From: Actinomycetospora termitidis | Lineage (GTDB): Bacteria; Actinomycetota; Actinomycetes; Mycobacteriales; Pseudonocardiaceae | Assembly: GCF_030286555.1 (NCBI RefSeq) | Contig: NZ_JASVWF010000009.1 | Coordinates: 124,001 to 188,000 of the forward strand | Reading direction: 5' to 3' | Length of the DNA stretch: 64,000 nt | In this document: in pieces, positions 14,291 through 63,198 of the stretch | How positions within the stretch are numbered: position 1 is the stretch's first letter | Layout of the letters: each line of letters starts with the position of its first letter | Program-made: the position numbers and the translations under genes | Notes under the pieces: generated by a model | Told to the model about the DNA's origin: nothing | Seen by the model: the letters and a program-made list of their open reading frames with translations, nothing else | The model's database searches: none

Positions 14291-14446
14291 ATGCACCCGC
14301 GTCCCTCAACGCCGGCGTCCGCACGGTACGACGGCCGTACGCGCTGCGTCGAGACGGACGCGCCGCGTCACATCGACCTTGACCGTGTCCGCCCCGGGTG
14401 GTTCTGTCCTGTCCATGGCACCCGGCGGCACGCTCGTCACGCGTGA
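14291..14446 (+). CDS. Second leader-like ORF overlapping the main leader (candidate)
   Basis: A 51-codon ORF in another frame contains DAPRHIDLDRVRPGWFC, a recognisable variant of the RRHVDLxRV...C signature, about 75 bp before the canonical leader copy. It overlaps the canonical leader's first codons. It may be a duplicated, partly decayed leader, or part of a tandem leader arrangement. The only nearby start is an ATG 27 codons before the motif, longer than in the other leaders, which lowers confidence that it is translated. Confidence 0.35.
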   Translation: MHPRPSTPASARYDGRTRCVETDAPRHIDLDRVRPGWFCPVHGTRRHARHA

Positions 14447-14489
14447 GCACGTCGACCTGTGCCGTGTGTGGTCCTCCGCCTGTCGCTGA
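14415..14489 (+). CDS. Sulfur leader peptide 1 (24 residues)
   Basis: Peptide ends REHVDLCRVWSSACR-stop: the signature (R/E)HVDLxRV with Cys codons at residues 16 and 23. It lies about 100 bp before the binding-protein gene at 14593. Downstream, aggaccc (14516) and gggtcct (14548) can form a stem in front of the gene. Short actinobacterial ORFs with this signature are known as putative leader peptides; ribosome stalling at the Cys codons when charged tRNA-Cys is scarce is the presumed mode of control. Here the genomic placement supports that model; no expression data are available. Confidence 0.85.
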   Translation: MAPGGTLVTREHVDLCRVWSSACR

Positions 14490-14592
14490 GCGTCTCCGCA
14501 GCTCACCGCCGCAGCAGGACCCACCCCTCGGCGCGTCCCACCGCGTCGGGTCCTCCGCTCGGCTCCACCTCCCTGAGTGACAGGACCTCGTC

Positions 14593-15495
14593 ATGTCCCG
14601 TGCCGTGCTGCCGGCGCTGGTCGCCCTCGTGGGCGTGCTGCTGGCCGGGTGTGCGTCCCCGCTCGACGACGCCGACGCCGGCGTCCCGCGCGAGGACGTC
14701 ACGGCGGCCGTGGCCGCGGACCCCGCGGCGGTCGCCCTGCTGCCGGACGACGTCCGGACGGCGGGCGTGCTGTCGGTCGGCGCGAGCGTGTCCGCCCCGC
14801 CGAGCGCGTTCCACCTCGCCGACGGGGTCACGACGACGGGTCAGGACATCGACATGACCGAGGCGGTGGCTCGGACCCTGGGCCTGCGGGTGCAGCGCAC
14901 CGAGTCGACGTTCGACGGGATCGTGCCCGGCCTGACCAGCGGCAAGTTCGACGTCGGCACCGGCAACTTCGCGGTGACCGAGGCGCGCAAGAAGCAGGTC
15001 AGCTTCGTGACCTACATCAACGACGGGCAGGGCTTCGCCGTGCGCGCCGACGACCCGCAGCCGCCCATCCGCGACCTGGTCGAACTCTGCGGCCGCACGG
15101 TGTCCGTCCTGACCGGCTCCACCTTCGAGTCCACCCTGGCCAAGGCCCAGCCGCGATGTAGCCAGGCGGGCCGACCGGCCATCGAGGTCCGCAGCTACCC
15201 CGACGGTGCGACGACGGGTCTCGCACTCGCCCAGCGCCGCGCCGACGTCACGATGAGCACGATCAACGGCCTGCGCTACCTCGTGTCCCAGCAGCCCCGG
15301 CTGCGGTTCGTGGGGGAGTACCGCCGGCTCGACGTCGGGTTCGCCCTCGCGAAGGACTCGCCGCTGATCCCGGCCGTGCAGGCGGCCGTCACGAGGCTCA
15401 TGGCCGACGGCACCTACGCCCGGATCCTCGCCAAGTGGGGCACCTCGCCCTCCGCGCTGCGCACCTCCCAGGTCGACCCGCCCGAACCGGTTTGA
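14593..15495 (+). CDS. Family-3 ABC transporter substrate-binding lipoprotein (cystine-type)
   Basis: 300 residues. A lipoprotein signal VALVGVLLAGC places the mature N-terminal Cys at about residue 20. The SBP_bac_3 fold is shown by GVLSVGASVSAPPSAFH, GQDIDMTEAVARTLGL, STFDGIVPGLTSGKFDVGTG and a hinge region CGRTVSVLTGSTFE. It is divergent from the matching permease and ATPase genes (13345-14262, 12620-13348), giving one importer split across two transcripts. Leader peptide 1 controls this side. It is followed by two mini-genes and a YeiH-type transporter on the same strand. Confidence 0.9.
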   Translation: MSRAVLPALVALVGVLLAGCASPLDDADAGVPREDVTAAVAADPAAVALLPDDVRTAGVLSVGASVSAPPSAFHLADGVTTTGQDIDMTEAVARTLGLRVQRTESTFDGIVPGLTSGKFDVGTGNFAVTEARKKQVSFVTYINDGQGFAVRADDPQPPIRDLVELCGRTVSVLTGSTFESTLAKAQPRCSQAGRPAIEVRSYPDGATTGLALAQRRADVTMSTINGLRYLVSQQPRLRFVGEYRRLDVGFALAKDSPLIPAVQAAVTRLMADGTYARILAKWGTSPSALRTSQVDPPEPV

Positions 15496-15528
15496 CCCCA
15501 CCCCTCCTCCGCTTCCCGGGAGACACCT

Positions 15529-15729
15529 GTGTCCTTCACCCCCCGTGGCGCCGCGGTCGCCACGTTCCTGACCCATCTCGACGCCGTCGTCCAGCGCGAG
15601 GTGTCGGCGGTCGATGCCGGCGCCGGGCGCTGGGAGATCGAGGCCGAGCGCATCGCGGCCGAGGTCGCCGGCTCGCTCGCCCTGCTGCGTACCGAGCTCC
15701 AGCGCCACCGCACCGCCTTCGCCGAGTAA
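15529..15729 (+). CDS. 66-residue protein of unknown function in the YeiH operon
   Basis: GTG start 33 bp after the binding-protein stop. No hydrophobic segment; the composition suggests two amphipathic helices (VATFLTHLDAVVQREVSAVD and AERIAAEVAGSLALLRTELQ), so a small helical-hairpin protein, possibly a coiled coil. It sits between the S-amino-acid binding protein and the YeiH unit, which suggests an accessory or regulatory role in sulfur transport. Family not recognised. Confidence 0.5.
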   Translation: MSFTPRGAAVATFLTHLDAVVQREVSAVDAGAGRWEIEAERIAAEVAGSLALLRTELQRHRTAFAE

Positions 15730-15761
15730 CCACCACCACCCGACGTCAGGAAGGCATCACC

Positions 15762-15917
15762 ATGACCGAGCCCGCCCCGCCCGCCCCGGCCCCGGAGCCG
15801 CGTCCCACCGGTCTCGCCCGCCTCGGCGCGGACTGGATCGCGGTGATCGTCGCCGGGGCCCTCGTCCTGCTCGCGGGCCTGGGCCTGCTCCCGACGATCC
15901 CGTTCCTCATCAAGTGA
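15762..15917 (+). CDS. 51-residue single-helix membrane protein coupled to the YeiH transporter
   Basis: After a Pro-rich N-terminus comes one transmembrane helix, WIAVIVAGALVLLAGLGLLP. Its last codons overlap the GTG start of the YeiH gene in a GTGA arrangement, so the two are translationally coupled. This placement suggests a small partner subunit of the exporter, comparable to the mini-proteins that accompany many secondary transporters. No recognised family. Confidence 0.6.
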   Translation: MTEPAPPAPAPEPRPTGLARLGADWIAVIVAGALVLLAGLGLLPTIPFLIK

Positions 15918-17005
15918 CCACCGAGACCGCCGAGACCTCCCCGACGGCGCCGTCGGGGCTGGTCCGGGCGATTCCCGGCATCCTGCTGCTGGTGGTGATC
16001 GGGGTCGTCGGCGTGGCGCTGCAGGCCGGCGTCCGCGAGCTCGGCGCGGCCACCGGCACGCGGCTGCCCGACGTCGAGTACGTCCTGTGGGCGATCCTGC
16101 TCGGGCTGCTCGTGCGGAACACGATCGGCGTCGCGCCGGTGTTCCGACCTGGCGTCGCCAGCTACGAGTTCTGGCTCAAGATCGGGATCGTGCTGCTGGG
16201 CGCGCGCTACCTGCTGGGCGACCTGGTGAAGCTGGGCGGGCTGTCGTTCGTCCTGATCCTGATCGACATGGCCGTCGCGACGACGGTGATCCTGCTGATC
16301 GGCCGGTGGCTCGGCCTGGGCGGGAAGCTCTCGTCGCTCCTCGCGATCGGCACCTCCATCTGCGGCGTGTCCGCGATCATCGCCGGCCGCGGCGCGATCG
16401 GGGCCGACGACGAGGACTCCGGCTACTCGATCGCCGCGATCCTCGCGCTCGGCGCGGTGGCGCTGTTCAGCTTCCCCGCGATCGGGCACCTGCTCCAGCT
16501 CTCCGACCTCCAGTTCGGGCTCTGGGCGGGACTCGCGGTGGACAACACCGCGGAGACCACGGCCACCGGCGCCGCGTACTCGCCCGCGGCGCAGGACGTG
16601 GCCGTCGCGGTGAAGAACACGCGCAACGCGCTGATCGGCGTCGTCGTGCTCGGGTACGCCGCCTATTGGGCCACCCGGGGCGGCCGGGCGATCGCGAGCA
16701 CCGGCCGCGAGCGGGCCGTCTTCGTCTGGGCGACCTTCCCGAAGTTCGTCCTGGGTTTCCTCGCGGTCGCGGCGCTCGGGACGATCGGGTTCTTCTCCGG
16801 CGCCGACAAGACGAGCCTCGGCAACCTGTCGAAGTGGGCGTTCCTGCTCTGCTTCGCCGGAGTGGGGCTGAACTTCGACCTGCGGGCACTGTCCCGCAGC
16901 GGCTGGCGCCCGCTGATCGTGGCGGCCGCGGGCCTCGTCGTGGTCGCCGCCTGCTCGCTGGGGCTCGTCCTGATCGCCTCGCCCGCGCTGGGCGCCGCTC
17001 CGTGA
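15914..17005 (+). CDS. YeiH/UPF0324 family putative sulfate (sulfo-anion) exporter
   Basis: 363 residues from a GTG overlapping the previous stop. About ten hydrophobic helices. Family landmarks are LWAILLGLLVRNTIG, FWLKIGIVLLGARYLLGDLV, GTSICGVSAIIAGRGAI, GLAVDNTAETTATGAAYSP, TRNALIGVVVLGYAAYW and a helix with WATFPKFVLGFL. Members are annotated as putative sulfate exporters; relatives in taurine and sulfoacetaldehyde degradation operons are thought to export sulfate or related anions. In this sulfur island a role in disposing of excess sulfite or sulfate is plausible. The preceding mini membrane protein is probably its partner. Confidence 0.9.
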   Translation: MTTETAETSPTAPSGLVRAIPGILLLVVIGVVGVALQAGVRELGAATGTRLPDVEYVLWAILLGLLVRNTIGVAPVFRPGVASYEFWLKIGIVLLGARYLLGDLVKLGGLSFVLILIDMAVATTVILLIGRWLGLGGKLSSLLAIGTSICGVSAIIAGRGAIGADDEDSGYSIAAILALGAVALFSFPAIGHLLQLSDLQFGLWAGLAVDNTAETTATGAAYSPAAQDVAVAVKNTRNALIGVVVLGYAAYWATRGGRAIASTGRERAVFVWATFPKFVLGFLAVAALGTIGFFSGADKTSLGNLSKWAFLLCFAGVGLNFDLRALSRSGWRPLIVAAAGLVVVAACSLGLVLIASPALGAAP

Positions 17006-17058
17006 CCCTCCGTCCGGACAGTCACCGACATCACGTCGGTGGCCCCCACGACCGGGGC

Positions 17059-17163
17059 ATGGCAGGCTCAGTACCCGTGACCTCCGCCGCCGACGTGCGC
17101 CTCGTGGCCCGCCGCCACGTGGACTTCGGCCGCGTGTACAGCTGCGCCTGTCTCTCCTCCTGA
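17059..17163 (+). CDS. Sulfur leader peptide 2 (34 residues)
   Basis: The peptide contains VARRHVDFGRVYSCACLSS-stop, with two Cys codons flanking one Ala. An internal GTG at 17077 is an alternative start. The stop codon is followed at once by the strongest hairpin in the window (17166-17215), and ssuA-1 begins 123 bp after the stop. This is the clearest leader/attenuator arrangement here: stalling at the Cys codons would place the ribosome at the foot of the hairpin. Confidence 0.88.
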   Translation: MAGSVPVTSAADVRLVARRHVDFGRVYSCACLSS

Positions 17164-17165
17164 CA

Positions 17166-17286: not shown

Positions 17287-18366
17287 GTGTCCCCTCACCG
17301 TCGGCGCACCCTGCCTGCCGTCGTCATCACCCTCCTCGCCGCCGCCCTGGCCCTCGCCGGCTGCTCCCGCGCGCAGGAGTCCACCAGCACCCCCGCCGCC
17401 GACGCGGGGCCCGCGCCGGAGCTGCGTCTCGGGTACTTTCCGAACATCACCCACGCCGGTGCCCTGATCGGCGTGCAGAACGGGCTCTTCGCCCAGCAGC
17501 TCGGTCAGACGAAGCTCTCCACGCAGACCTTCAACGCCGGGCCGGAGGAGACCAGCGCGCTCTTCGGCAACTCGATCGACCTCGGCTTCATCGGCTCGGG
17601 TCCCGCGATCAACGCCTACAAGCAGAACCCCGAGGGCGTGCGCGTCATCGCCGGCGCGACGTCGGGTGGGGCCCAGCTGGTCGTCCGACCGGGCATCACG
17701 AACCCGCAGCAGCTCCTGGGCAAGAAGATCGCGACGCCGCAGCTGGCGAACACGCAGGACATCGCGCTGAAGAAGTGGCTCAAGGACAACAACCTTCCGG
17801 CCGGCACCGGGCCGGGCGCCGTCGAGGTCGTCAACATCGACAACGCCCGCGCGCTGGACGCCTACAAGACCGGCCAGCTCGACGGCGGGTGGCTGCCGGA
17901 GCCCTTCGCGTCCCGCTTCGTGCTCGAGGGCGGCGCCACGGCGCTGCTCGACGAGAAGACCCTGTGGCCGAACGGGCAGTTCCCGACGACGGTCGTCATC
18001 GCACGCACCGACTACGTCGCGCAGCACCCGAGCACCGTCGCCGCGTTCCTCAAGGGCCTCGTCGCCGCCGAGGACCTCGCGCGGACCGACCCGAACGCCG
18101 CCAAGACCGCCGCGAACGCCGGACTCGGCGCCTCGGGCAGCAAGCCGCTCGCGCAGAACGTGCTCGACCGCGCGTGGGACGACGTGCAGCTCAACCCCGA
18201 CCCCCTGGCGGGCACCTTCCCGACCCTGGCGCAGAACGCCGTCGCAGCAGGGACGGCGCAGTCGGCCACCGACGTCAAGGGCCTCTTCGCCCTCGGCCCG
18301 CTCAACGAAGCGCTGCAGGCCGCCGGACGACCGACCGTCGACCCGGCCGGTCTCGACACCAAGTAG
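17287..18366 (+). CDS. ssuA: Sulfonate-type ABC transporter substrate-binding lipoprotein (SsuA-like)
   Basis: 359 residues, GTG start. Lipoprotein signal LLAAALALAGC, then an NMT1/SsuA-like domain: LRLGYFPNITHAGALIGVQN, FNAGPEETSALFGNSIDLGF, IGSGPAINAYKQ and DGGWLPEPFASRF. The family delivers aliphatic sulfonates, sulfate esters or taurine to an SsuBC transporter. It is first in a three-gene operon with ssuB and ssuC and behind leader peptide 2. No sulfonate monooxygenase is in this transcript, so the substrate could differ from that of the second ssu operon at 28-32 kb. Confidence 0.88.
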   Translation: MSPHRRRTLPAVVITLLAAALALAGCSRAQESTSTPAADAGPAPELRLGYFPNITHAGALIGVQNGLFAQQLGQTKLSTQTFNAGPEETSALFGNSIDLGFIGSGPAINAYKQNPEGVRVIAGATSGGAQLVVRPGITNPQQLLGKKIATPQLANTQDIALKKWLKDNNLPAGTGPGAVEVVNIDNARALDAYKTGQLDGGWLPEPFASRFVLEGGATALLDEKTLWPNGQFPTTVVIARTDYVAQHPSTVAAFLKGLVAAEDLARTDPNAAKTAANAGLGASGSKPLAQNVLDRAWDDVQLNPDPLAGTFPTLAQNAVAAGTAQSATDVKGLFALGPLNEALQAAGRPTVDPAGLDTK

Positions 18367-18388
18367 TCCTTCCTCGAGGAGCATCACC

Positions 18389-19192
18389 ATGACCGCCACG
18401 CTCGAGCGCTCCACCCCGGACCCGCGGACCGGACCTCCCGCGCTGGACGTCCGCGGCGTCTCGAAGGTCTTCGGCAGCGGGACCGACGCCGTCGTCGCCC
18501 TCGACGGGGTCGACCTGTCGGTCGCGCCGGGGGAGTTCGTCTGCCTCCTCGGTGCCTCGGGCTGTGGCAAGTCGACGCTGCTCAACCTGGTCGCCGGCCT
18601 CGACCGGCCCACGAGCGGCACCGTCGAGACCTCCGCGGCGCGGCCGGCCGTGATGTTCCAGGAGGCGGCCCTGCTGCCGTGGCTGGACGCCGGGCGCAAC
18701 GTCGAGCTGCCGCTGCGCCTGGCCGGGATCGGCCGGTCGGCGCGGCGGGAGCGCGCCCACGAGCTGCTCGCCCTCGTGCGGCTGGAGGGTCAGGCGGACA
18801 AGCGTCCGCACGAGCTCTCCGGCGGCATGCGGCAGCGCGTCGCCCTCGCTCGGGCGCTGGCCGCGGCAACGGGGCTCGGTGAGGGCGGGACGACCCGGCA
18901 CGAGCCGGGCGTGCTGCTCATGGACGAGCCGTTCGGGGCGCTCGACGCCATCACGCGCGACGTCCTGCAGGCCGAGCTGCTGCGGGTGTGGGAGGCGACC
19001 GGCACGACCGTGCTGTTCGTGACCCACGACGTGCGCGAGTCGGTCCGCCTCGCCGAGCGGGTCGTCCTGCTCTCGTCGCGGCCCGGCCGGGTCGTCCGGG
19101 AGTGGGCCACCGCCTCGGACAGCGACCCCGAGGAGCTGCACGGGGACATCACCGGTGAGCTCCGAGAGGTGATCTCGGCCCATGCCCGCTGA
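18389..19192 (+). CDS. ssuB: Sulfonate-type ABC transporter ATP-binding protein (SsuB-like)
   Basis: 267 residues. Walker A GASGCGKST, Q-loop VMFQEAALLPWLDAGRN, signature LSGGMRQRV, Walker B LLMDEPFGALDA, H-loop FVTHDVRESVRLA. The MFQEaaLLPW and FGALDA forms mark the nitrate/sulfonate/taurine importer class. An insertion of about 20 residues (GEGGTTRHEPGV) lies between the signature and Walker B. It overlaps ssuC by 11 bp, so the two are co-translated. Confidence 0.92.
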   Translation: MTATLERSTPDPRTGPPALDVRGVSKVFGSGTDAVVALDGVDLSVAPGEFVCLLGASGCGKSTLLNLVAGLDRPTSGTVETSAARPAVMFQEAALLPWLDAGRNVELPLRLAGIGRSARRERAHELLALVRLEGQADKRPHELSGGMRQRVALARALAAATGLGEGGTTRHEPGVLLMDEPFGALDAITRDVLQAELLRVWEATGTTVLFVTHDVRESVRLAERVVLLSSRPGRVVREWATASDSDPEELHGDITGELREVISAHAR

Positions 19193-20081
19193 CACGACCA
19201 CCGACGAACAGCGGCCGGGCACACCCGACGACGCCGCCGACGTCGGGCGGGGTCTCGACGCCCTCGACACGCCCACCGAGCAGCGCACCCCGCTGTGGAA
19301 GCGGTTCCTCACCGGCGTGGTGCCGCCGATCGTCGCGGTCGTGCTGTTCGTCGTCGTCTGGCAGATCCTGTGGGCCTCGGCGATCTGGCCGGAGTTCAAG
19401 CTGCCCTCACCGCAGGCGGTGTTCGGGCAGATCGGCACACAGCTCGCCGACGGGCAGGCGCTGTCGATCATCTGGACCTCGATCAGCCGCGCGGTGCTCG
19501 GCTTCCTGCTGGCCGTGGTGATCGCGACCCCGATCGGCCTGCTGGTCGCGACGGTGCCGCTGGTCCGGTCCGCGATCGGCCCGATCCTCACCGGGCTGCA
19601 GAGCCTGCCGTCGGTGGCGTGGGTGCCGGCCGCGGTGCTGTGGTTCGGGCTGAACGACCAGACGATCTATTTCGTCGTCCTCATGGGCGCGGTGCCCTCG
19701 ATCGCGAACGGGCTCGTCTCCGGCATCGACCAGGTCCCGCCGCTGCTGCCGCGGGTCGGGTTCGCGATGGGCGCCAGCCGGTCCCAGTCCGCGCGGTTGA
19801 TCATGCTGCCCGCCGCCCTGCCCGGGTTCCTCGGCGGGCTCAAGCAGGGCTGGGCGTTCGCGTGGCGTTCGCTGATGGCCGCCGAGATCATCGCGACCTC
19901 GCCCAGCCTCGGGTTCGGCCTGGGCGCCTACCTCAACCAGGGGCAGTCGCTCTCGGACATGTCCTCGGTGATGGCGGCGATCCTGCTCATCCTCGTCGTC
20001 GGCATCGGCGTCGAGCTGATCTTCTTCCGACCGGCCGAGCTGCGCGTCCTGCGGGCGCGGGGCCTCGCGACGGGGCCGTGA
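19182..20081 (+). CDS. ssuC: Sulfonate-type ABC transporter permease (SsuC-like)
   Basis: 299 residues. About 45 cytosolic residues precede six helices. Family landmarks are WQILWASAIWPEFKLPSP, QSLPSVAWVPAAVLWFGLND, the EAA-type loop GFAMGASRSQSARLIMLPAALP and GLKQGWAFAWRSLMAAEII, typical of SsuC/TauC permeases. The start overlaps ssuB by 11 bp, and the stop codon overlaps the start of leader peptide 3 by four bases. Confidence 0.92.
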   Translation: MPADTTTDEQRPGTPDDAADVGRGLDALDTPTEQRTPLWKRFLTGVVPPIVAVVLFVVVWQILWASAIWPEFKLPSPQAVFGQIGTQLADGQALSIIWTSISRAVLGFLLAVVIATPIGLLVATVPLVRSAIGPILTGLQSLPSVAWVPAAVLWFGLNDQTIYFVVLMGAVPSIANGLVSGIDQVPPLLPRVGFAMGASRSQSARLIMLPAALPGFLGGLKQGWAFAWRSLMAAEIIATSPSLGFGLGAYLNQGQSLSDMSSVMAAILLILVVGIGVELIFFRPAELRVLRARGLATGP

Positions 20082-20152
20082 GCGAGGTGGCGGGTCTGAC
20101 CCGGCGACGGCACGTGGACCACGGGTGGGTGGGCAGCGCGCTCTGTCGCTGA
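20078..20152 (+). CDS. Sulfur leader peptide 3 (24 residues), coupled to ssuC
   Basis: A GTG overlapping the ssuC stop (GTGA) starts a peptide ending TRRRHVDHGWVGSALCR-stop. It has the RRHVD core and a single Cys next to last. Thirty-eight bases later cysC begins. This leader lies inside what would otherwise be one transcript, so it may be an internal attenuator adjusting cysC and sulfotransferase expression relative to ssuABC. Translational coupling to ssuC is unusual for a leader ORF. Confidence 0.82.
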   Translation: MSEVAGLTRRRHVDHGWVGSALCR

Positions 20153-20190
20153 CGGCACCGGAGAGTCCGTCCCCCTGACGAGGAGCCGTC

Positions 20191-20808
20191 GTGTCCACCA
20201 TCGTCCACCCGTCCTCCGTGCCCTGCACCGGTGGCGCCACCGTCTGGTTGACCGGCCTGCCCAGCGCCGGGAAGTCCACCGTCGCGATCGGCGTCGCAGA
20301 GCAGTTGCGGGTCGAGCGCTGCGGCGTCGAGGTCCTCGACGGGGACGTCATCCGCACCAACCTCTCCAAGGGCCTCGGCTACAGCCGCGAGGACCGGGCG
20401 GTGAACATCCGCCGTATCGGCTTCGTGTCCGGTCTGCTGGCTCGCAACGGGGTGGTGGTGCTGGTCGCCTCCATCGCGCCGCACGCCGACGTCCGCGACC
20501 AGGTCCGCGCCGACCACGACGACCTCGGCGTCCCCTACGTCGAGGTGCACCTCTCGACCCCGGTGGAGGTCACCGCGCAGCGGGACGTCAAGGGCCTTTA
20601 CGCCAAGCACCGGGCGGGCGAGATCACCGGGCTGACCGGCGTCGACGACGCCTACGAGGTCCCCGAGCACCCGGATCTGGTCCTGCCCACCCACGAGCAG
20701 TCGGTCGACGAGTCCGTGGCCGCCCTCGTCGACCACCTGGTCGCCCGGGGGATCCTGGAGCGTCCGCATCCGGGCCTGCGCGACGCCGACCGTCGCCAGG
20801 CCGTCTGA
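20191..20808 (+). CDS. cysC: Adenylylsulfate (APS) kinase
   Basis: 205 residues, GTG start. P-loop GLPSAGKST at about residues 28-36. VLDGDVIRTNLSKGLGYS is the diagnostic APS kinase motif, followed by REDRAVNIRRIGFVSGLLA, VASIAPHADVRDQVR and DVKGLYAKHRAGEITGLTGV. It makes PAPS from APS and ATP. The sulfurylase genes (cysD/cysN) are not in the window, and the next genes are a propeller-like protein and a sulfotransferase, so here PAPS may feed sulfation rather than assimilation. Preceded by leader peptide 3. Confidence 0.95.
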   Translation: MSTIVHPSSVPCTGGATVWLTGLPSAGKSTVAIGVAEQLRVERCGVEVLDGDVIRTNLSKGLGYSREDRAVNIRRIGFVSGLLARNGVVVLVASIAPHADVRDQVRADHDDLGVPYVEVHLSTPVEVTAQRDVKGLYAKHRAGEITGLTGVDDAYEVPEHPDLVLPTHEQSVDESVAALVDHLVARGILERPHPGLRDADRRQAV

Positions 20809-20825
20809 GAAGGAGGAGCTCCCCC

Positions 20826-24608: not shown

Positions 24609-24671
24609 GGAAGAGGGCTCCCCCCGAGGGCGTCGCCGACCGCGTCGTGGCGCGGCCGGCGACGGCGGACG

Positions 24672-29597: not shown

Positions 29598-29612
29598 GGT
29601 GTGCGCTCCGTG

Positions 29613-52803: not shown

Positions 52804-52863
52804 TCAGGTCGCGGAGCAGACCCGCTCGAGGTCGACGTGACGCCGACGCGTCAGGAGCGGCAC
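52804..52863 (-). CDS. Sulfur leader peptide 7 (19 residues)
   Basis: GTG start; the peptide VPLLTRRRHVDLERVCSAT carries the full signature, with the Cys codon four residues before the stop rather than next to last. Just after the stop, ggtgggcc can pair with ccccacc (minus strand), a short possible attenuator stem. The SsuD-type gene begins 53 bp after the leader stop. Confidence 0.87.
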   Translation of the reverse strand: MPLLTRRRHVDLERVCSAT

Positions 52864-53137: not shown

Positions 53138-53315
53138 GGGAGCTCCCGGTGTCGAGGGATGATCAGTACTCCGGGAGTGGCCACCTCGACCCGGGAGCAA
53201 CGCCTGATGTGACGGCGGCCTCGAAATGGACCGCGTCGTCGGCCGCGCCCGTTGACACCGTCGGTCGTGCCGCGGTTCGGTGGTCGGCGTGACACGCGGA
53301 GACGAGGTGCCGGTC
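53138..53315. other. Divergent intergenic region
   Basis: Between the divergent dodecin gene and leader peptide 8. A gatcagtactccgggagtgg stretch lies about 20 bp from the dodecin start. No gene and no clear promoter hexamer were identified. Confidence 0.4.
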
Positions 53316-53384
53316 ATGGCACTGCTGACCTCCCGTCGTCACGTCGATCTCCTGCTGGTCTGCTCCAGCGCCTGTCGCGGCTGA
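53316..53384 (+). CDS. Sulfur leader peptide 8 (22 residues)
   Basis: ATG start; MALLTSRRHVDLLLVCSSAC and then Arg-Gly-stop. Two Cys codons near the end. The 173 bp to the DszC-like gene are very GC-rich with several possible stems (for example ccccggccgggg), so a structured leader is likely, but one stem cannot be singled out. Confidence 0.88.
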   Translation: MALLTSRRHVDLLLVCSSACRG

Positions 53385-55388: not shown

Positions 55389-57038
55389 TCACGCCCGCGC
55401 CTGCTGGCCGGCGATCGCGCCCAGCAAAGTCCGGGTGTACTCGTGGTGCGGGTCGTCGAACAACTCGCCCGTGGGCCGCAGTTCCAGCAACCGCCCGCCC
55501 TGCATCACACCGACCCGGTGGGCGACCCGGCGGACCACCGCGAGGTCGTGCGAGATGAACAGGTAGGACAGCCCGTCGCGTTCCTGCAGTTCGTGCAGCA
55601 GCTCGAGCACCTGCGCCTGCACGGACACGTCGAGCGCGGAGACCGGCTCGTCGCACACCACGAGGTCCGGGGACAGGGCGAGCGCCCGGGCGATCGCCAC
55701 CCGCTGGCGCTGCCCGCCCGAGAGCTCCACCGGCCGCCGGTCGAGCATCGACGCCGGCAGCGCCACCCGGTCGACCAGCTCGGCCGCCCGCGCAGCCTGG
55801 TCGTCGCGCGACCCGACGCCGAACGCGCGCAGCGGCTCGGTGATCACCTCGCGCACGGGGAAGCGGGGGTCGAGCGAGGCGAAGGGGTTCTGGTAGACGA
55901 GCTGGGCGCGGCGCCGCAGGTCCCGCCAGGCCGACCCGCGCACCGTCGTGATGTCCGCGCCGTCGAGGAACACCTGTCCCGACGTCGGGTCGGCCAGGCG
56001 CAGCAGCAGTCGCGCGGTGGTCGACTTGCCCGACCCGGACTCCCCGACGAGCGCGAGCGTCTCGCCGCGGGAGATCGTGAACGACACGTCGTCCACGGCC
56101 CGCAGGTGCTCGCGCCGGAACGACCCGCGCGTCCGGGGCAGCGGGAAGTCCTTGACCAGCCCGCGGACCTCCGCGATCGGCGTCCCGGTCGCGGAGACCG
56201 GCGGAAGGGCGTCCACGACGGCGAGCCCGGGCGCGGCCGCGAGCAGCTCCCGCGTGTAGGGGTGCGTCGGCCGGTCGAGGATCTCTGCGGTCGGTCCCTG
56301 TTCGACGATCCGGCCCTGCGACATCACGACGATGCGGTCGGCCCGGTCGGCGGCCACACCGAGGTCGTGGGTGACCAGCAGTAGGGCGCTGCCGGTCTCC
56401 GCGCGCAGCGTGTCGAGGTGGTCGAGGATCTGGCGCGCCACGGTCGCGTCGAGCGCACTCGTCGGCTCGTCGGCGATGAGCAGAGCGGGGGAGGCGGCGA
56501 TCGCGACCGCGATCAGCGCCCGCTGCCGCAGGCCGCCCGAGAGTTCGTGCGGGTACTGGCCCGCGCGCACCGCCGCGTCCGGGATGCCGGCGCGTTCCAG
56601 CAGCTCTACGGCCCGCGCCGGGGCGGACCGCCGGTCGGCCAGGGCGTGCACCCGCAGCACCTCGGCGACCTGGGTACCGACCTTCTGCACCGGGTTCAGA
56701 GAGACGCCCGGGTCCTGCGGGACCAGGCCGATCCGGGCACCGCGCACCGAGCGCAGCGCCTTCTCCGAACGGCCCAGCAGCTCCTCGCCGTCGAGCGCGA
56801 CGCTGCCGGCCCGGACGGCTCCGTTGGCGGGCAGCAGCCCGATCACGGCCTGCGCCAACGTCGACTTCCCGGACCCGGACTCCCCGACGACGGCCACGAC
56901 CTCGCCGGCCGCGACCTCGAGGTCGACCCCGCGCAGGGCGTCGACGGTGCCGCCGGCGACGCGGTAGTCGACCTGCAGGTCCTGCACGCGTAACAGCGTC
57001 GATGGTCGAGCTCCGCTGCGCTTCGTCTCCGAGCTCAC
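55389..57038 (-). CDS. Fused Opp/Dpp-type ABC transporter with two ATPase domains
   Basis: 549 residues from the GTG overlapping the permease stop by four bases. NBD1 (about 15-265): Walker A GESGSGKSTLAQAV, signature LSGGLRQRA, Walker B LLIADEPTSALDA. NBD2 (about 275-540): GESGSGKSTTARLL, LSGGQRQRV, LVVCDEPVSALDV. This merges OppD- and OppF-like subunits in one chain. Last gene of an operon of six, starting at 63048 behind leader peptide 9. Confidence 0.93.
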   Translation of the reverse strand: MSSETKRSGARPSTLLRVQDLQVDYRVAGGTVDALRGVDLEVAAGEVVAVVGESGSGKSTLAQAVIGLLPANGAVRAGSVALDGEELLGRSEKALRSVRGARIGLVPQDPGVSLNPVQKVGTQVAEVLRVHALADRRSAPARAVELLERAGIPDAAVRAGQYPHELSGGLRQRALIAVAIAASPALLIADEPTSALDATVARQILDHLDTLRAETGSALLLVTHDLGVAADRADRIVVMSQGRIVEQGPTAEILDRPTHPYTRELLAAAPGLAVVDALPPVSATGTPIAEVRGLVKDFPLPRTRGSFRREHLRAVDDVSFTISRGETLALVGESGSGKSTTARLLLRLADPTSGQVFLDGADITTVRGSAWRDLRRRAQLVYQNPFASLDPRFPVREVITEPLRAFGVGSRDDQAARAAELVDRVALPASMLDRRPVELSGGQRQRVAIARALALSPDLVVCDEPVSALDVSVQAQVLELLHELQERDGLSYLFISHDLAVVRRVAHRVGVMQGGRLLELRPTGELFDDPHHEYTRTLLGAIAGQQARA

Positions 57039-57940
57039 CGGTCCCGCCCCCACTCGCCGTCGAGCGCCTTCGAGACGCGGTTCACCGAGAGCACGGTCGC
57101 GGCGATCGTCAGGCCGGGCATGGCGCACATCCACCAGGCGGTCGCCAGGTAGTTGCGGCCCTCGGCCACCAGCGACCCCCACTCCGGGGCGGGGGGCGGC
57201 GCGCCGTAGCCGAGGAACGACAGCGACGACACCGCGAGGATCGCGAGCCCGAACTCCAGCACCGCGAGCACGAGCACCGGACCAGCCGCGTTCGGCAGCA
57301 CGTGCCGGCCCAGCGTCACCCACCACCGCGTCCCGACCGCCCGTGCCGCTTCGACGTACACGGTGCCGCGCACCCGCAGGGTCTCTGCGCGCATCACGCG
57401 GGCGAACTGCGCCACGCTCGCGACGCCGACCGCGATCGCCACGTTCGTCGTGCCGAAGCCGAGCGCGGCGATCAGGGCGAGCGCCAGCAGGATCGGCGGG
57501 ATCGCGAGGAGGACGTCGACGACGCGCATGAGCACCTCGTCCACCCAGCCCCCGACGAAGCCGGCGAGCAGCCCGATCAGGCCGCCGACGACGAGCGCGA
57601 CCGCCACCGCGATCAGGGTGGCCTGCAGCGACAGCGAGGTGCCGTGCACGACGCGGGTCCACACGTCGCGCCCCAGGTAGTCGGTGCCGAACCAGTGCCC
57701 CGGCCCGGGCGGCAGCGAGCGCTGTCGCGGGACGGCGAGGGTCGGGTCGCCCGGGGCGAACAGCGCCGGGAACACGGCCGAGACCAGCACGAACACGATC
57801 ACCAGGATCGAGACGACGAGCCCCGGACGGCGCCGCAGGAAGCGGCCGAGGCGCGCACGGCCCTGCGCCGAGGGCGTTCCCGACGACGGGGCCGGGGCCG
57901 CCTCCCCGCGGTCGGTCCTCGGATCGAGCAGTTCGGTCAT
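57035..57940 (-). CDS. Opp/Dpp-type ABC transporter permease (DppC-like)
   Basis: 301 residues. GHWFGTDYLGRDVWTRVVHG is the DppC signature with the G-T-D-x-x-G-R-D motif; EAARAVGTRWWVTLGRHVLP is the EAA loop, and APEWGSLVAEGRNYLATAWW the conserved periplasmic-loop segment. Six helices. Overlaps both neighbours by four bases. Confidence 0.93.
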   Translation of the reverse strand: MTELLDPRTDRGEAAPAPSSGTPSAQGRARLGRFLRRRPGLVVSILVIVFVLVSAVFPALFAPGDPTLAVPRQRSLPPGPGHWFGTDYLGRDVWTRVVHGTSLSLQATLIAVAVALVVGGLIGLLAGFVGGWVDEVLMRVVDVLLAIPPILLALALIAALGFGTTNVAIAVGVASVAQFARVMRAETLRVRGTVYVEAARAVGTRWWVTLGRHVLPNAAGPVLVLAVLEFGLAILAVSSLSFLGYGAPPPAPEWGSLVAEGRNYLATAWWMCAMPGLTIAATVLSVNRVSKALDGEWGRDR

Positions 57941-58875
57941 GCGGGCACCGCCTGGGTGACGCGGGGGTCGAGCAGGGGATAGATCAGGTCGACGGAGAGG
58001 TTCACCAGCACGAACACGAGCGCCGCGAACAGCACGACGCCCTGGACGAGCGGGACGTCCTGGTCGGCGACCGCCTCGACGGTGGTCCGCCCGAGGCCGG
58101 GGCGGGTGAACACCGTCTCGACGACGACCGTCCCGGCCAGCAGGTTGCCCGTTACGTACCCGAGCACGGTCAGCGCCGGGATCGCGGCGTTGCCCAGCGC
58201 GTGCCGGAGGTGGACCGCGAGCGGCCCGACCCCCTTGGCCCGCGCTGTCGTCACGTACGGCTCGGTCAGGGCGGTCGACATGCTCTTGACGAGCACCTGG
58301 GCGATCAGCGCGCCCGTCGGCAGCGCCAGGGTGACCGCCGGGAGGATCAGCGCAGCCGGCCCGCGCGCCCCGACGGCGGGCAGCCACCCGAGCTGGAACG
58401 AGAACAGCTGGACCAGCATCAGCCCGACCCAGAACACCGGCAGCGACACCGCGAGCGACGGCAGGCCCATCAGGACCTGTGCGAGCCAGCGGCTCCGCGT
58501 GTAGGTGGCGGTCAGCGCGACCCCGGCGCCGAACACGACGGCGAGGACCAGCCCCGCCGTCGCGATCTGCAGGGTCGGGGGCAGCGCCTCGGCGATCGTG
58601 CGGCCGACGGGCTGACCGTTGACGAAGGACGTCCCGAGGTCACCCCGAAGTGCCGCGCCGAGCCGCTCCAGGTACTGCACCGGCACCGGCTGGTCGAGCC
58701 CGTAGCGGGCCCGCAACGCGTCCAGCTCGGCCGTCGTGATCGCCGTCCCGTCCGACGCCCGGGCGACGAGCGTCGCCACCGGGTCGGCCAGGAGGTAGAG
58801 CACGGCGAACGACACGGTGTACGACGCCCACAGGACGAGGGCCGCGAACCCGAGCCGGCGCAGGAGATAGATCAC
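57937..58875 (-). CDS. Opp/Dpp-type ABC transporter permease (DppB-like)
   Basis: 312 residues, GTG start overlapping the binding-protein stop. LRARYGLDQPVPVQYLERLG, GDLGTSFVNGQPVGRTIAEA and TARAKGVGPLAVHLRHALGN (EAA loop) are DppB-type, as is the FTRPGLGRTTVEAVADQDVP C-terminal segment. Pairs with the DppC-like subunit. Confidence 0.93.
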   Translation of the reverse strand: MIYLLRRLGFAALVLWASYTVSFAVLYLLADPVATLVARASDGTAITTAELDALRARYGLDQPVPVQYLERLGAALRGDLGTSFVNGQPVGRTIAEALPPTLQIATAGLVLAVVFGAGVALTATYTRSRWLAQVLMGLPSLAVSLPVFWVGLMLVQLFSFQLGWLPAVGARGPAALILPAVTLALPTGALIAQVLVKSMSTALTEPYVTTARAKGVGPLAVHLRHALGNAAIPALTVLGYVTGNLLAGTVVVETVFTRPGLGRTTVEAVADQDVPLVQGVVLFAALVFVLVNLSVDLIYPLLDPRVTQAVPA

Positions 58876-60470
58876 GGTGCCGACTTCCACGTGTCGTGCA
58901 GCTGGATACGCGACGAGGCGTCGAAGGCGACGGAGTGCGCGGCCGGACCGACCGCGAGCGTCGTGGTGAGCTCCGCGACCGGCACGACCAGGTGCTGCGC
59001 GACCAGCTGCTGCTGGGCCTGGGCCACGATCTGCGTGCGCTGCGCGGGGTCGAGCGTCCCGGCCTGCGCGACGAGCAGCCCGTCGAGGGGGGTGCCGGCC
59101 GGGAAGCGGAAGACGTTCGAGCCGGCGCTTCCGTACTGCGCACGCAGGATGTCCGGGTCGGCCCGGCTGACGTTGAGCCAGGCCGCGGTGAACTGCCCGC
59201 TCTGCTGGATGGTCGCGGTGTCGGACACCGGCCGTTCCTGCAGCTGGAGGTCGATCCCGACGGCGCGCAGCTGCTGCTGGAGCAGTTCGAGCGCCGGTCG
59301 GTTGGTCGCGATGACCGGCGCGTAGAGCAGCGGCAGCGTCAGCCGCGCTCCGGCCTTCGCCCGGATGCCGTCCGGCCCCCGGACCCAGCCGGCGGCGTCG
59401 AGCGCCTGGTTCGCCCGGTTCGGGTCGAACGGGAGCACCGCGGACTGGTCGGCGTAGTCCGGCGTCGTGGATGCCAGCGCAGAGGTCGCCGGCTTCGTCT
59501 GCGAGGTGTAGACCGCCGACACGACCTCCTGCCGGTTGATCGCGGTCGAGACGGCCTCGCGCACGGCCGGGTCGGCGCCGAGCGGCGTCGCCTGGTTGAA
59601 CACGATCCCGAACGGTGTCCCCGGATTGGCGCGCGACGGCAGGTCGATCCCGGCGCCGGCGAGCGGCGCCTCGTCCTGCGGGCCGATGCTCGCGATCGCG
59701 TCGACCTCGCCGGACTGCAGGCTGCCGGTCCGCACGCCGGACTCCGGGACGACCCGGAACTCGGCGCGGTCGAGGTAGGCCTCGCCGGGGTGGGTGAACA
59801 GCGACGAGCCCCAGGAGTAGCCGGGCCGCTTCGTCAGAACCGTGGCCTGGTTCTTCGTGTACGAGGCCAGCACGAACGGCCCGGACCCGATCACGCCCGC
59901 GCAGCGCTGGTCGTCGGTCTGCGCCGCGCTCGCGGGGGACACCAGGCCGAGGCTGTGGGTCGAGGTGCCCTGCAGGAACTGCACGTTGGGCTGGGCGAAC
60001 CGCACCGTGAACGACGTCGGGCTCGTCACGGTCGTGCCCTGGTAGCCCGCGAGGTAGCCCTTCGGCAGCGTGCCGCGGGCGCCGAGGGACGGCACGCGGT
60101 CGAAGTTCGCCTTGACCGCGTTCGCATCGACCGGGGCGCCGTCGGAGAACGTCGCACCCGGGCGCAACTGGAAGGTCCACTCGGTGGCCTGCGGGTTCGA
60201 CGACCACGAGGTCGCGAGCCACGGCTTGATGTCGCCGGTGGCCGGGTCCTGGTCGGTGAGCGAGTCGACGATCTGGCGCATCGAGTAGATCGAGTCGTTG
60301 CTGCCGACCTGCGCGGGGTCGGCGCACCCGGCGTCGCTGGACACCGCGAACACGAGCGTGCCGCCGGGCCGGGGCGGGCCGGCGTCCTCGCCGGACCCGC
60401 CCGCGCCGCTGCTGCAGGCGGCCAGGGCGAGCAGACCCGCCGTCAGGAACGCGGGGACGGTGAGTCTCAC
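58872..60470 (-). CDS. Opp/Dpp-type (family 5) substrate-binding lipoprotein
   Basis: 532 residues, GTG start overlapping the monooxygenase stop. Lipoprotein signal AFLTAGLLALAAC, then SBP_bac_5: RPGGTLVFAVSSDAGCADPA, IVDSLTDQDPATGDIKPWLA, WTFQLRPGATFSDGAPVDAN, GSGPFVLASYTKNQATVLTK and FGIVFNQATPLGADPAVREA. Family members bind peptides, nickel, glutathione or other small compounds. The presence of two organosulfur-type monooxygenases and a Cys leader suggest a sulfur-containing ligand. Confidence 0.92.
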   Translation of the reverse strand: MRLTVPAFLTAGLLALAACSSGAGGSGEDAGPPRPGGTLVFAVSSDAGCADPAQVGSNDSIYSMRQIVDSLTDQDPATGDIKPWLATSWSSNPQATEWTFQLRPGATFSDGAPVDANAVKANFDRVPSLGARGTLPKGYLAGYQGTTVTSPTSFTVRFAQPNVQFLQGTSTHSLGLVSPASAAQTDDQRCAGVIGSGPFVLASYTKNQATVLTKRPGYSWGSSLFTHPGEAYLDRAEFRVVPESGVRTGSLQSGEVDAIASIGPQDEAPLAGAGIDLPSRANPGTPFGIVFNQATPLGADPAVREAVSTAINRQEVVSAVYTSQTKPATSALASTTPDYADQSAVLPFDPNRANQALDAAGWVRGPDGIRAKAGARLTLPLLYAPVIATNRPALELLQQQLRAVGIDLQLQERPVSDTATIQQSGQFTAAWLNVSRADPDILRAQYGSAGSNVFRFPAGTPLDGLLVAQAGTLDPAQRTQIVAQAQQQLVAQHLVVPVAELTTTLAVGPAAHSVAFDASSRIQLHDTWKSAP

Positions 60471-61840
60471 GAGGCCACCACCGACGGACGACGCTCACCG
60501 AAGCGGGCCGGGGAAGCCAGCCCGAGGTTCTCGCGCAACGTGCCTCTTTCGTAGTCGGTACGGAACACCCCGCGGTCGGCGAGGATCGGGACGACCTTCT
60601 CGACGATCTCGTCGAGGCCGGTCGGGCTCACGTGGGAGCCGAGGATGAAGCCGTCGCAGGCGTCGGCCTGGACGTAGCGGTCGATCTCGTCGGCGACGTG
60701 CTCCGGGGTGCCGACGAACACCGCCCGGTCGAACACGTGCTTGACCGTCTCGCGCAGCGACAGCCCGCGGGCGTCGGCGATCTCCCGCCACGCCTTCGCG
60801 GTGGCGTGCGCGTCCTGGGTCAGCGGGGCGCGCCCGCGGATCCAGGTCGGGGCCTCGGGCGTGGGGTCGACGTCGGGGAGCGGGCCGTCCGGGTCGTAGG
60901 CCGAGAGGTCGCGGTTCCACACCATCTCGGCGAGCACGATCGCGGTCCACGGGTCGACCTGGCGGTCGTGGATCTCGGCGTGCCGCTCGCGGGCCTGGGC
61001 CTCGGTGTCGCCGAGCACGACCCCGGCCGACGGCAGGATCCGCACCTCGTCGGGGTTCCGGCCGGCCTTCGCGACCCGGGCCTTGACGTCGTCGAAGAAC
61101 GCCCGCGCCTCCTCGAACTTCTGGTAGCGCGAGAAGATCGCGTCGGCGTTCGCGGCCGCGAAGTCGCGGCCGGCGGGGGACTCCCCGGCCTGCAGGATCA
61201 CCGGGTGGCCCTGCGGGCTGCGGGGCACGGTGAAGCGGCCGGCGATGTCGAACTGGTTCCCGTGCAATGCGAAGTCGCCGACGTGGCCGTCGCGCAGGAA
61301 CGTCCCCGACGCCGGGTCGGCGACGACCGCGTCCGACCCCCACGAGTCCCAGAGCGTGCGGACCGCGGCCAGCGTCTCGCCCGCCCGCTCGTAGCGCTGG
61401 TGGTGCCCGAGGTAGCCGCCGTGGCGGAAGTTCTCGCCCGTCGGTGCGTCGGAGCTGGTGACGACGTTCCACGCGGCACGGCCACCGGAGAGCACGTCGA
61501 GCGTGGCGAACTTCCGGGCCAGCTCGTAGGGCTCGTTGAACGTCGAGTTGATCGTCCCGGCGAGACCGATGTGCTCCGTGACCGCGGCGAGCGAGGCGAG
61601 CACCGTGAAGGTGTCCGGCCGCCCGACGACGTCCTGGTCGAAGAAGTCCTCGCCGCGGGTCCGGATGCGTAGACCCTCGGCGAGGAAGAGCAGGTCCAGC
61701 TTGCCGCGCTCGGCGGTGCGGGCCCAGTGCTCGAACGAGGCGAAGTCGATGTGGCTCCCCGACGCCGGGTCGCTCCAGACGGTGTCGTGGTTGACGCCGG
61801 GGAAGTAGGCACCCAGCACGATCTGCTTGCGGTCGCTCAT
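60467..61840 (-). CDS. NtaA-family FMN-dependent monooxygenase (CmoJ-like, paralog of 43367)
   Basis: 457 residues. IVLGAYFPGVNHDTVWSDPA, HWARTAERGKLDLLFLAEGL, GLAGTINSTFNEPYELARKF, GRAAWNVVTSSDAPTGENFR and GHPVILQAGESPAGRDFAAA parallel the gene at 43367 almost motif by motif. Coupled to the LLM gene upstream and the binding-protein gene downstream by 4-bp overlaps. A second copy of the same enzyme pair attached to a different transporter suggests a related but distinct organosulfur substrate. Confidence 0.92.
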   Translation of the reverse strand: MSDRKQIVLGAYFPGVNHDTVWSDPASGSHIDFASFEHWARTAERGKLDLLFLAEGLRIRTRGEDFFDQDVVGRPDTFTVLASLAAVTEHIGLAGTINSTFNEPYELARKFATLDVLSGGRAAWNVVTSSDAPTGENFRHGGYLGHHQRYERAGETLAAVRTLWDSWGSDAVVADPASGTFLRDGHVGDFALHGNQFDIAGRFTVPRSPQGHPVILQAGESPAGRDFAAANADAIFSRYQKFEEARAFFDDVKARVAKAGRNPDEVRILPSAGVVLGDTEAQARERHAEIHDRQVDPWTAIVLAEMVWNRDLSAYDPDGPLPDVDPTPEAPTWIRGRAPLTQDAHATAKAWREIADARGLSLRETVKHVFDRAVFVGTPEHVADEIDRYVQADACDGFILGSHVSPTGLDEIVEKVVPILADRGVFRTDYERGTLRENLGLASPARFGERRPSVVAS

Positions 61841-63048
61841 GCGGGGCTCCCTGCGGTGGCGTAGCGGCTGACGGGACGGGGCAGGCCGAAGCGCTCGCGC
61901 AGGGTCGGCTCGGCGTACACGGTGCGGAACGCACCGCGGCGCTGGAGCTCGGGGACGAGGCCGTCGACGATGCGGTCGAGGTCGGTCGGCAGGACAGCGG
62001 GGCGCAGCCGGTAGCCGTCCAGGCCGGCCTCCTGCCAGGAGACGAGCAGGTCCGCGAGGGCGGAGGGCGTGGTCGCGAGGACGGCGGCGTCGCTCGACAC
62101 CGGGTCGATCGCGTCGAGGCGCTCGAGCCGCTCGCGGGCCTCGTCGTCGGTGTCCGCGAGCAGGACGACCAGGTCGGCGAGGATCCGGAGCGGCTCCTCG
62201 CGAGCGGTCTCGCCCTCGATCTCCCGGACCCGCCCGACGATCCCGCGGGCCTCGTGCGCGTCGTGCGGGGTGACGAACAGGACGTCCCCGCCCCGGGCGG
62301 CGAGGCGGTACGGCTCGTCGCCGTGGCCGAGGGAGACGACGAGGGGTTGTCCCTGCGGCGGTCGCGGCACGATCGACGGCCCGCGGACCGAGAACTGCTC
62401 GCCGACGAAGTCGACGTGGTGCAGCTTGGCGCGGTCGAGGAACCTCCCGGAGGTCACGTCGCGGATCTCGGCGTCGTCCTCCCAGGAGTCCCAGAGCCGC
62501 CGGACCACCTCGATCGCGTCGGTGGCCTCGCCGAACAGCTCGGCGACCAGGGCCTTCGCCGCCGGCGTGTCCAGCTCGTCGCGGCGTAGCCCGGCGATCG
62601 TCCGGCGCCCGAAGTGTGCGGCCTCGTCGGGACGGACGGAGGTCTGGACCCGCCAGCCGGCGCGGCCGCGGGAGTCGTGGTCGAGGGTGGCCAGCGCCGA
62701 GGCGACGTGGAACGGCTCGGTGTGCGTGGTCGTGACGGTCGGGACGAGCCCGATCCGGCTGGTCAGCGGCGCGACGAACGCGGCGATCAGCTCGGCGTCG
62801 AGGCGGCCCTGCAGGCGGTCGGTGCGGCGCTCCGGCTCGGCGAGGTGGTCGCCGGACTGCAGGCCGAGGGCGTCCTCGATCGTGACGAGGTCGAGCAGGC
62901 CGCGCTCGGCGGTGCGCACGAGGTCGGTCCAGTACCGGGCCGAGAACAGCTGGTCAGGGCGGGCGCCGGGTTCGCGCCAGGCGGCGGGGTGCCAGCCCGC
63001 ACCGTCGAGGGCGACGGCGACGTGCAGCGGCAGGGGTGATCCAGACAT
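61837..63048 (-). CDS. LLM-class flavin monooxygenase (CmoO-like, paralog of 44677)
   Basis: 403 residues. LHVAVALDGAGWHPAAWREP, VRTAERGLLDLVTIEDALGL, GLVPTVTTTHTEPFHVASAL, WDSWEDDAEIRDVTSGRFLD and VRGPSIVPRPPQGQPLVVSL match the gene at 44677. The insertion DHLAEPERRTDRLQGRLDA makes it longer. First structural gene of the operon, about 48 bp after the stop of leader peptide 9. Confidence 0.9.
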   Translation of the reverse strand: MSGSPLPLHVAVALDGAGWHPAAWREPGARPDQLFSARYWTDLVRTAERGLLDLVTIEDALGLQSGDHLAEPERRTDRLQGRLDAELIAAFVAPLTSRIGLVPTVTTTHTEPFHVASALATLDHDSRGRAGWRVQTSVRPDEAAHFGRRTIAGLRRDELDTPAAKALVAELFGEATDAIEVVRRLWDSWEDDAEIRDVTSGRFLDRAKLHHVDFVGEQFSVRGPSIVPRPPQGQPLVVSLGHGDEPYRLAARGGDVLFVTPHDAHEARGIVGRVREIEGETAREEPLRILADLVVLLADTDDEARERLERLDAIDPVSSDAAVLATTPSALADLLVSWQEAGLDGYRLRPAVLPTDLDRIVDGLVPELQRRGAFRTVYAEPTLRERFGLPRPVSRYATAGSPA

Positions 63049-63096
63049 GGGGTACCGCGCTCCTGGGATGGAGGGGGAGATGGTCCGTCGGGCTGG

Positions 63097-63198
63097 TCAG
63101 GCCGGACAGACCGCGCTGGCGACCCGCTGCAGGTCGACGTGGCGGCGGTAGCTCCCACGGTGCTGACAGCCCAGGACGGCGTCCCGCTCCGTGCGCAT
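63097..63198 (-). CDS. Sulfur leader peptide 9 (33 residues)
   Basis: ATG with GGAGG five bases before it; earlier in-frame ATGs at 63210 and 63222 lack as good a site. The peptide contains GCQHRGSYRRHVDLQRVASA and ends Val-Cys-Pro-Ala-stop: signature intact, with Cys codons at residues 11 and 31. It heads the seven-kilobase operon down to 55389. No single dominant hairpin was found between its stop and the LLM start. Confidence 0.87.
   Translation of the reverse strand: MRTERDAVLGCQHRGSYRRHVDLQRVASAVCPA

Follow-up and report, generated by a model that had tools for sequence, protein, structure and literature searches.

We analyzed a 64,000-nucleotide (nt) stretch of DNA from the soil-type actinobacterium Actinomycetospora termitidis (C30:124001-188000, hereafter the window; 73% G+C, host genome 6.56 Mb). 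The window holds nine short open reading frames (ORFs). They belong to a known actinobacterial family of leader peptides, which is related to the cysteine-responsive attenuators of mycobacteria, and probably act in cis. The ninth appears to be gated by an S-adenosylmethionine (SAM) riboswitch of the SAM-I class, which was absent from the preliminary description of this DNA. These features are listed here, each peptide sequence running up to the stop codon.

14415..14489, plus strand: leader ORF 1, ending in LVTREHVDLCRVWSSACR; precedes a cystine-type substrate-binding protein (SBP)/YeiH-type gene
17059..17163, plus strand: leader ORF 2, ending in LVARRHVDFGRVYSCACLSS; precedes an ssuA-type ABC operon; 35.1 bits with NF042936 (cut-off 45)
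20078..20152, plus strand: leader ORF 3, ending in LTRRRHVDHGWVGSALCR; precedes cysC; its start shares the sequence GTGA with the stop of the permease gene upstream
25260..25346, minus strand: leader ORF 4, diverged, ending in LVRRLHLDLCRVPAMGCRPARTA; precedes OsmC/major facilitator superfamily (MFS) genes
32191..32265, minus strand: leader ORF 5, ending in FAWRRHVDLMRLDAATCR; precedes ssuC-B-A-D
50284..50355, plus strand: leader ORF 6, ending in LTRRRHVDLLRVTAQGCR; precedes a luciferase-like monooxygenase (LLM) gene; 27.6 bits with NF042934 (cut-off 27)
52804..52863, minus strand: leader ORF 7, ending in LTRRRHVDLERVCSAT; precedes an SsuD-type gene; position 17 is the stop and the sole Cys is at 13
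53289..53384, plus strand (start 53289 or 53316): leader ORF 8, ending in LTSRRHVDLLLVCSSACRG; precedes a DszC/SfnB-type gene
63097..63198, minus strand: leader ORF 9, MRTERDAVLGCQHRGSYRRHVDLQRVASAVCPA; behind the SAM-I riboswitch; 33.3 bits with NF042934
63204..63211, minus strand: 3' arm of the P1 closing helix, GATGGAGG, which holds the Shine-Dalgarno (SD) sequence GGAGG of leader 9
63204..63296, minus strand: SAM-I riboswitch aptamer, directly 5' of leader 9; 55.3 bits with RF00162 (gathering threshold 44.4)

All nine ORFs named in the preliminary description are present, and the coordinates given there are starts in the plus-strand set, with 53289 as the other possible start of leader 8; on the minus strand 25260, 32191, 52804, and 63097 are the stop ends, the starts being 25346, 32265, 52863, and 63198. 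The signature RRHVD, which had been assigned to all nine, is found in seven, with leader 1 having REHVD and leader 4 a diverged form (VRRLHLDLCRVPAMGCRPARTA), while the Cys codons described near the stop include a Cys at motif position 17 in every window leader except leader 7 (8/9). The window was scored with a profile built from 52 leaders of other genera; the profile used to retrieve these 52 had itself contained the window leaders, so that the retrieval was not wholly independent. The nine ORFs are the nine top segments of the window, at 31.4 bits down to 12.0 bits for leader 5, the lowest, and the next segment scores 7.2 bits. The best of 30 first-order shuffles reaches 11.4 bits with the same profile, just under leader 5. 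As profile matches, the nine ORFs are not the product of chance.

The peptide type had been described as one annotated "putative leader peptide", and the NCBIfam models NF042934 and NF042936 bear this out. Three of the eight window leaders submitted lie above the NF042934 cut-off of 27 bits (27.6, 28.9, and 33.3 bits), the other five scoring 16.1-25.2 bits, and the place of leader 4 gives 21.6 bits in a genome search that returned eight places above the cut-off. Moreover, all 18 genomes of the genus hold NF042934 matches above cut-off, with 3-16 matches each at E 0.01, often on one contig. The motif is common to this entry and the window leaders, but the entry as shown does no more than name the peptide, and neither a mechanism nor a register, a codon bias, or a link to riboswitches appears in it.

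Regulation by Cys-rich small ORFs (sORFs) in mycobacteria was reportedly described by Canestrari in 2020. Two papers that cite this work describe such sORFs as acting via cysteine availability (PMC9094748, PMC9031893), and as early as 2005 leader peptides with Cys had been predicted ahead of cys operons in actinobacteria (PMC1262725). Like the mycobacterial polycysteine, leaderless sORF attenuators (Ms5788A/Ms4527A, in the naming of NCBIfam), the leaders seen here are short ORFs with Cys near the stop and a sulfur operon 3' of them, occur several times per genome, and may often be leaderless; NF042936 matches below its cut-off. In contrast to those sORFs, the present leaders mostly have a single Cys (UGU), whose place behind the conserved RRHVDL is fixed, most of them (15/18) lie in one 80-kb region, and one appears to be gated by SAM-I. 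The contiguous Cys run of the mycobacterial sORFs was not found in the window leaders, which have one to three non-adjacent Cys. Other known upstream ORFs (uORFs) are similar in that a uORF with Cys codons stands upstream of a cysteine gene; in the text at hand, however, their Cys codons come in runs or pairs, those of uORFC-8-2 being mostly UGC, and that text describes no riboswitch gate.

Using profiles, we gathered 120 distinct leaders, 111 of the RRHVD type and nine of the metN type. The 111 genus leaders share the ungapped register L-T-R-R4-R-H6-V-D8-L-x-R11-V-x-S-A-x-C17-R, in which R4 and D8 are invariant (111/111), H6 is kept in 103, and position 17 holds Cys in 105 leaders and the stop codon TGA in the other six. 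All four CGN codons are used for R4 (CGC 41, CGT 29, CGA 22, CGG 19). Over 802 leader pairs, the ratio of nonsynonymous to synonymous polymorphism (pN/pS) is 0.12 in columns 4-8, 0.36 in columns 1-17, and 1.08 in the 45 nt upstream, although the pairs were picked by peptide identity (at least 12/17), which biases pN downward and to that extent weakens the case. The observation that the conserved part lies upstream of the Cys codons thus stands and, as judged from these alignments, the motif is selected at the amino-acid level. An RNA-level cause of the conservation is ruled out because synonymous sites at the conserved residues vary freely. These data bear on the idea that the leaders are pure codon-supply attenuators, in which function would rest on the Cys codon and the RNA fold alone and RRHVD would be a relic of common descent. 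The leaders are homologous, as this idea would have it, and it agrees with the cysteine-availability model of the mycobacterial sORFs described above. Nevertheless, R4 and D8 are invariant despite free synonymous sites, columns 4-8 have the low pN/pS noted, and the motif is kept in leaders that have no Cys (L128, L132, L192, L199, L301, and L302), and we regard a purely codon-based device as unlikely.

Position 17 is distinguished by its codon as well as by its residue. Cys17 is UGU in 83/105 genus leaders, whereas the other Cys of those leaders are UGU in 3/63 cases (Fisher 5e-23), and in the window genes, where UGC is the usual codon, UGU accounts for 8/79. Outside the genus, UGU is used for Cys17 in 37/38 leaders, some of them from close species, and in 19/19 metN leaders. 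A single tRNA should read both Cys codons, and hence slower wobble reading of UGU may mark the control codon. The six leaders of the genus that end at position 17, leader 7 among them, all stand before an SsuD-type gene (VPVEFLGIA...), and in two related species (L128 and L132) this leader is without any Cys. In addition, four Streptomyces-type leaders (L192, L199, L301, and L302; ending in LTRRLHIDLLRVSSAY), all of them preceded by a SAM-IV riboswitch, have TGA or TAG at this position. Position 17 is only Cys or stop among the collected leaders, which fits a fixed A-site position.

The P1 3' arm of the window SAM-I ends 5 nt before the ATG of leader 9, and we infer that the riboswitch gates this leader. 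Riboswitch, leader, and LLM gene are kept in two relatives within the genus (L101 and L102; Rfam scores of 52.0 and 51.7 bits) and in Pseudonocardia sp. KRD291 (L197), which is the closest named relative of one gene among the 80 loci listed (71% identity). In genome G010 (L140), leader and LLM operon are kept and no SAM-I aptamer is found at that locus by Rfam, perhaps representing a natural deletion of the gate.

RF00162 matches occur in all 100 family genomes drawn, mostly two each among the matches listed. The longer SAM-I class stands directly before a gene, which is of PALP type in the host genome; this second SAM-I (L037:12321-12436, minus strand; C30:116321-116436) lies 8 kb upstream of the window. 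As a sample of genus spread, we took 38 short-class family loci from the listed matches, picked by Rfam place alone. Thirty-six of these, from 30 genera, combine a CCATCC/GATGG P1 with a MetN-like gene and a leader resembling LTRRRVVDQCRRTVSACRR; the remaining two (L108 and L173, one genus) have the P1 TCATCC/GATGAGG, without leader and without MetN-like gene. MetN was the best NCBIfam match, below cut-off, for the three proteins tested, and the others were assigned to these three by tblastn. A strictly matched aptamer set (n=36) was formed from 32 short-class loci together with the window, L101, L102, and L197; the P1 sequence is present in 36/36 of this set partly by construction, since the pattern required P1, and the non-circular count is that of the 38 loci. 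The start codon lies 4-8 nt past the P1 arm in 33/36 strictly matched loci. Cys17 is UGU in all 40 SAM-I-gated leaders, comprising the strict set (36/36) and L172, L176, L187, and L188. A model of the short SAM-I class has matches in 82/246 genomes of the taxonomic class. The pairing of SAM-I with a leader was dropped as a class-wide feature, given that neither motif inspection nor a whole-locus profile (best 7.7 bits) revealed a leader in the 29 SAM-I loci taken from the 81 out-of-family matches.

No paper describing a SAM riboswitch that gates a Cys leader was found in the open-access literature, subscription papers lying mostly outside this search. The re-annotation of S. lividans has the SAM element and the metNIQ leader at different genes (PMC8079986), and the overlap of riboswitch base stems with the initiation site in Actinobacteria was noted in 2005 (PMC1262725). 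The Xanthomonas SAM-I that also senses uncharged tRNA-fMet is likewise a two-input SAM-I device, but its second input binds the expression platform directly, and no leader peptide is mentioned in the abstract (PMC7270179). The B12 riboswitch-uPPE2-ppe2 relay is similar in that a riboswitch hides the SD of a uORF needed by the main gene; uPPE2 differs in that it overlaps the gene start, works mainly by termination-reinitiation, and is not described as an amino-acid sensor in the text available (PMC11260477). What is new here is the placement of SAM-I directly before a sulfur leader; the family, Cys leaders, the B12-uORF relay, and two-input SAM-I are already known. The uPPE2 example favors a translational relay without cysteine sensing, in which translation of the leader would simply pass on, by coupling or re-initiation, to the gene that follows, and leaders with a stop at 17 and no Cys also fit such a scheme. 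The distance from leader stop to gene start has a median of 97 nt (109 leaders with an SD), however, which is far for re-initiation, and the strict Cys17 and UGU use speak against it as well, making a relay of this kind quite unlikely.

A riboswitch of a second class lies within the window.

48762..48876, plus strand: SAM-IV riboswitch, immediately ahead of a gene for a SufS-type cysteine desulfurase (48921-50243), with no leader seen between

SAM-IV is present in 114/197 genomes of the class. Our sample of 50 SAM-IV loci, which comprises 30 top-scoring matches and 20 lower-scoring or second copies and does not represent a frequency, has family leaders adjoining SAM-IV in L301-L306 by the leader profile. 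An association of SAM-IV with a leader was rejected as a rule, no adjacent leader being found in the 30 top-scoring loci (L275 has one ~1.4 kb off) with a profile that would miss polycysteine leaders. At L310, on the reverse strand of a genome from the same taxonomic order, inspection by sight shows SAM-IV followed by the polycysteine ORF MCCCCLSLAHR and a metY-like ORF; a tiny, doubtful ORF behind SAM-IV at L311 (MCRSPR, reverse strand) is perhaps a minimal Cys leader. In Streptomyces sp. NBC_00620 (L199), SAM-IV, a Cys17 leader, and an LLM gene stand in line, and comparison with L197 suggests that LLM targets are under a SAM-I gate in one lineage and under a SAM-IV gate in another. L197 and L199 are the only cases of a SAM riboswitch before an LLM leader in the 20 of 80 LLM loci that were scanned with Rfam.

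The genes behind the window leaders are as follows; many of their proteins score below the curated cut-off of their best profile.

14605..17005, plus strand: cystine-type SBP and YeiH-type gene
17287..20081, plus strand: SsuA-type SBP, ATPase, and permease
20191..22540, plus strand: CysC (adenylyl-sulfate kinase) and the two next genes
23235..25145, minus strand: OsmC-like protein and MFS symporter
28524..32039, minus strand: SsuC, SsuB, SsuA, and SsuD set
50401..51495, plus strand: LLM
51620..52750, minus strand: SsuD-type LLM
53558..54802, plus strand: DszC/SfnB-type monooxygenase
55389..63048, minus strand: NtaA/DmoA-type LLM pair, Opp-type SBP, two permeases, and double ATPase; target of the putatively SAM-gated leader 9

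The statement that each window leader precedes a sulfur unit holds for six sulfur-type targets, two further targets being LLMs and the sulfur link of OsmC/MFS being doubtful. A dodecin gene (52922-53137, minus strand) lies between two leaders that point away from each other. The NF042934 search and reading of its matches gave 18 leaders in the genome, nine of them in the window and six at C30:189-218 kb, while C25 has one and C1 has two. The cluster continues 30 kb past the window and reaches sulfate-reduction genes, and with 15/18 leaders within ~80 kb (C30:138.4-217.9 kb) in a region rich in sulfur genes, the proposal of an organosulfur regulon gathered at one locus is upheld. Targets of the leaders outside the window are an MsnO8-type LLM region (first ORF uncertain), an MFS gene, an RTX-repeat gene, an SsuC-type set, TauE/SafE, sulfite-reductase/CysH/CysD-like genes, an acyl-CoA-dehydrogenase-type gene, rhodanese, and an LLM. 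Genome-wide, then, the expectation that all leaders precede sulfur genes is borne out for most of them: ten of the 18 targets are of sulfur type and four are LLMs, while three are doubtful (OsmC/MFS, MFS, and the acyl-CoA-dehydrogenase type) and one is the RTX gene. The last encodes calcium-binding repeats (L038:7104-7898) behind the leader L038:6902-6958 (plus strand), and this leader type stands before a gene of that kind in another species too (L136); the notion that its product is free of sulfur is ruled out by 6 Cys and 2 Met. Selection at the peptide level could also mean that the leaders yield small proteins with a role in trans, but there are 18 divergent copies, each right before a gene or operon, and this seems very improbable.

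Three features bear on how ribosomes might enter the leaders. TTGAC lies 36 or 37 nt 5' of an in-frame start in 17 instances, with the next cluster having eight instances at 27-28 nt, and leader 1 has it 36 nt 5' of its ATG; such spacing is what leaderless mRNAs would show. A -35-like TTG word is seen 33-38 nt 5' of the start in 29/111 leaders, and leader 9 is SD-led. The starts of leader 3 and of L039:7928 (minus strand) overlap the stop of the upstream gene as GTGA. With regard to the next gene, leader 7 is the clearest case, its codons UCUGCUCC over Cys13 being a perfect complement of GGAGCAGA, which lies at the SD of the SsuD-type gene, and, for the 18 leaders of this genome, cognate pairing between leader and SD region exceeds permuted pairing (-24.8 vs -21.7 kcal/mol, p=0.0005). 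The SD-proximal complementarity in several leaders argues against transcription attenuation by Rho, in which pausing ribosomes would shield the transcript; this was suggested for mycobacterial cys leaders in an earlier study (PMC1262725), and we think it improbable here.

The reading that we favor, and consider probable on these comparative grounds, is that ribosome pausing at codon 17 in cysteine shortage opens the next gene, sometimes under SAM control. When cysteinyl-tRNA is short, the ribosome would wait with codon 17 in the A site, at which point the whole chain (~21 residues in short leaders) would still be inside the exit tunnel. By waiting there, the ribosome would prevent the closure of an RNA structure that by default masks the start site of the gene behind the leader. 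Entry would follow one of three routes: directly at the 5' end where the mRNA is leaderless, through coupling to the upstream gene at a GTGA overlap, or at the SD in the SAM-I closing helix. With SAM bound, leader 9 would not be started and the default closed state would stay. SAM should thus block leader translation, and the gene would be expected to be on only if SAM and cysteine are both low.

Several observations weigh against this reading. Pairing between leader and SD region is weak over 106 leaders (mean rank 0.40). Compared with shuffles, the genus leaders are modestly folded around Cys17 (mean z -0.76) and almost as much in columns 1-12 (-0.61), and outside the genus folding around Cys17 is absent (mean z +0.19); a general hairpin at Cys17 was therefore dropped as a defining feature. 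Most leaders have a single Cys rather than a run, and ten leaders end at position 17, of which the six named above are Cys-free. Three of the 36 gated leaders start just 1 nt past the P1 arm, and the P1 pairs are invariant in an alignment of 18 sequences, such that no covariation can be claimed. Finally, the 18 genome targets include the RTX gene and the three that are doubtful as sulfur genes. A further, tentative possibility is that the leaders are arrest peptides, in which R4, H6, D8, and R11 in the tunnel would stall the ribosome while codon 17 occupies the A site. The trigger would be slow arrival there, at UGU or at the stop in Cys-free leaders, and SAM-I and SAM-IV would have been placed in front independently, giving a two-input device in which a single RNA senses SAM through the aptamer and cysteine through the ribosome.

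If the favored reading is true, these leaders would include a natural sulfur logic gate that joins a metabolite riboswitch and a ribosome-based amino-acid sensor in one mRNA leader, and the combination of SAM-I and leader before metN-like genes extends to the 30 genera sampled. More than 100 leaders, with Cys or with a stop, and with or without a riboswitch, moreover form a natural series on the role of the nascent peptide in sensing amino-acid shortage.

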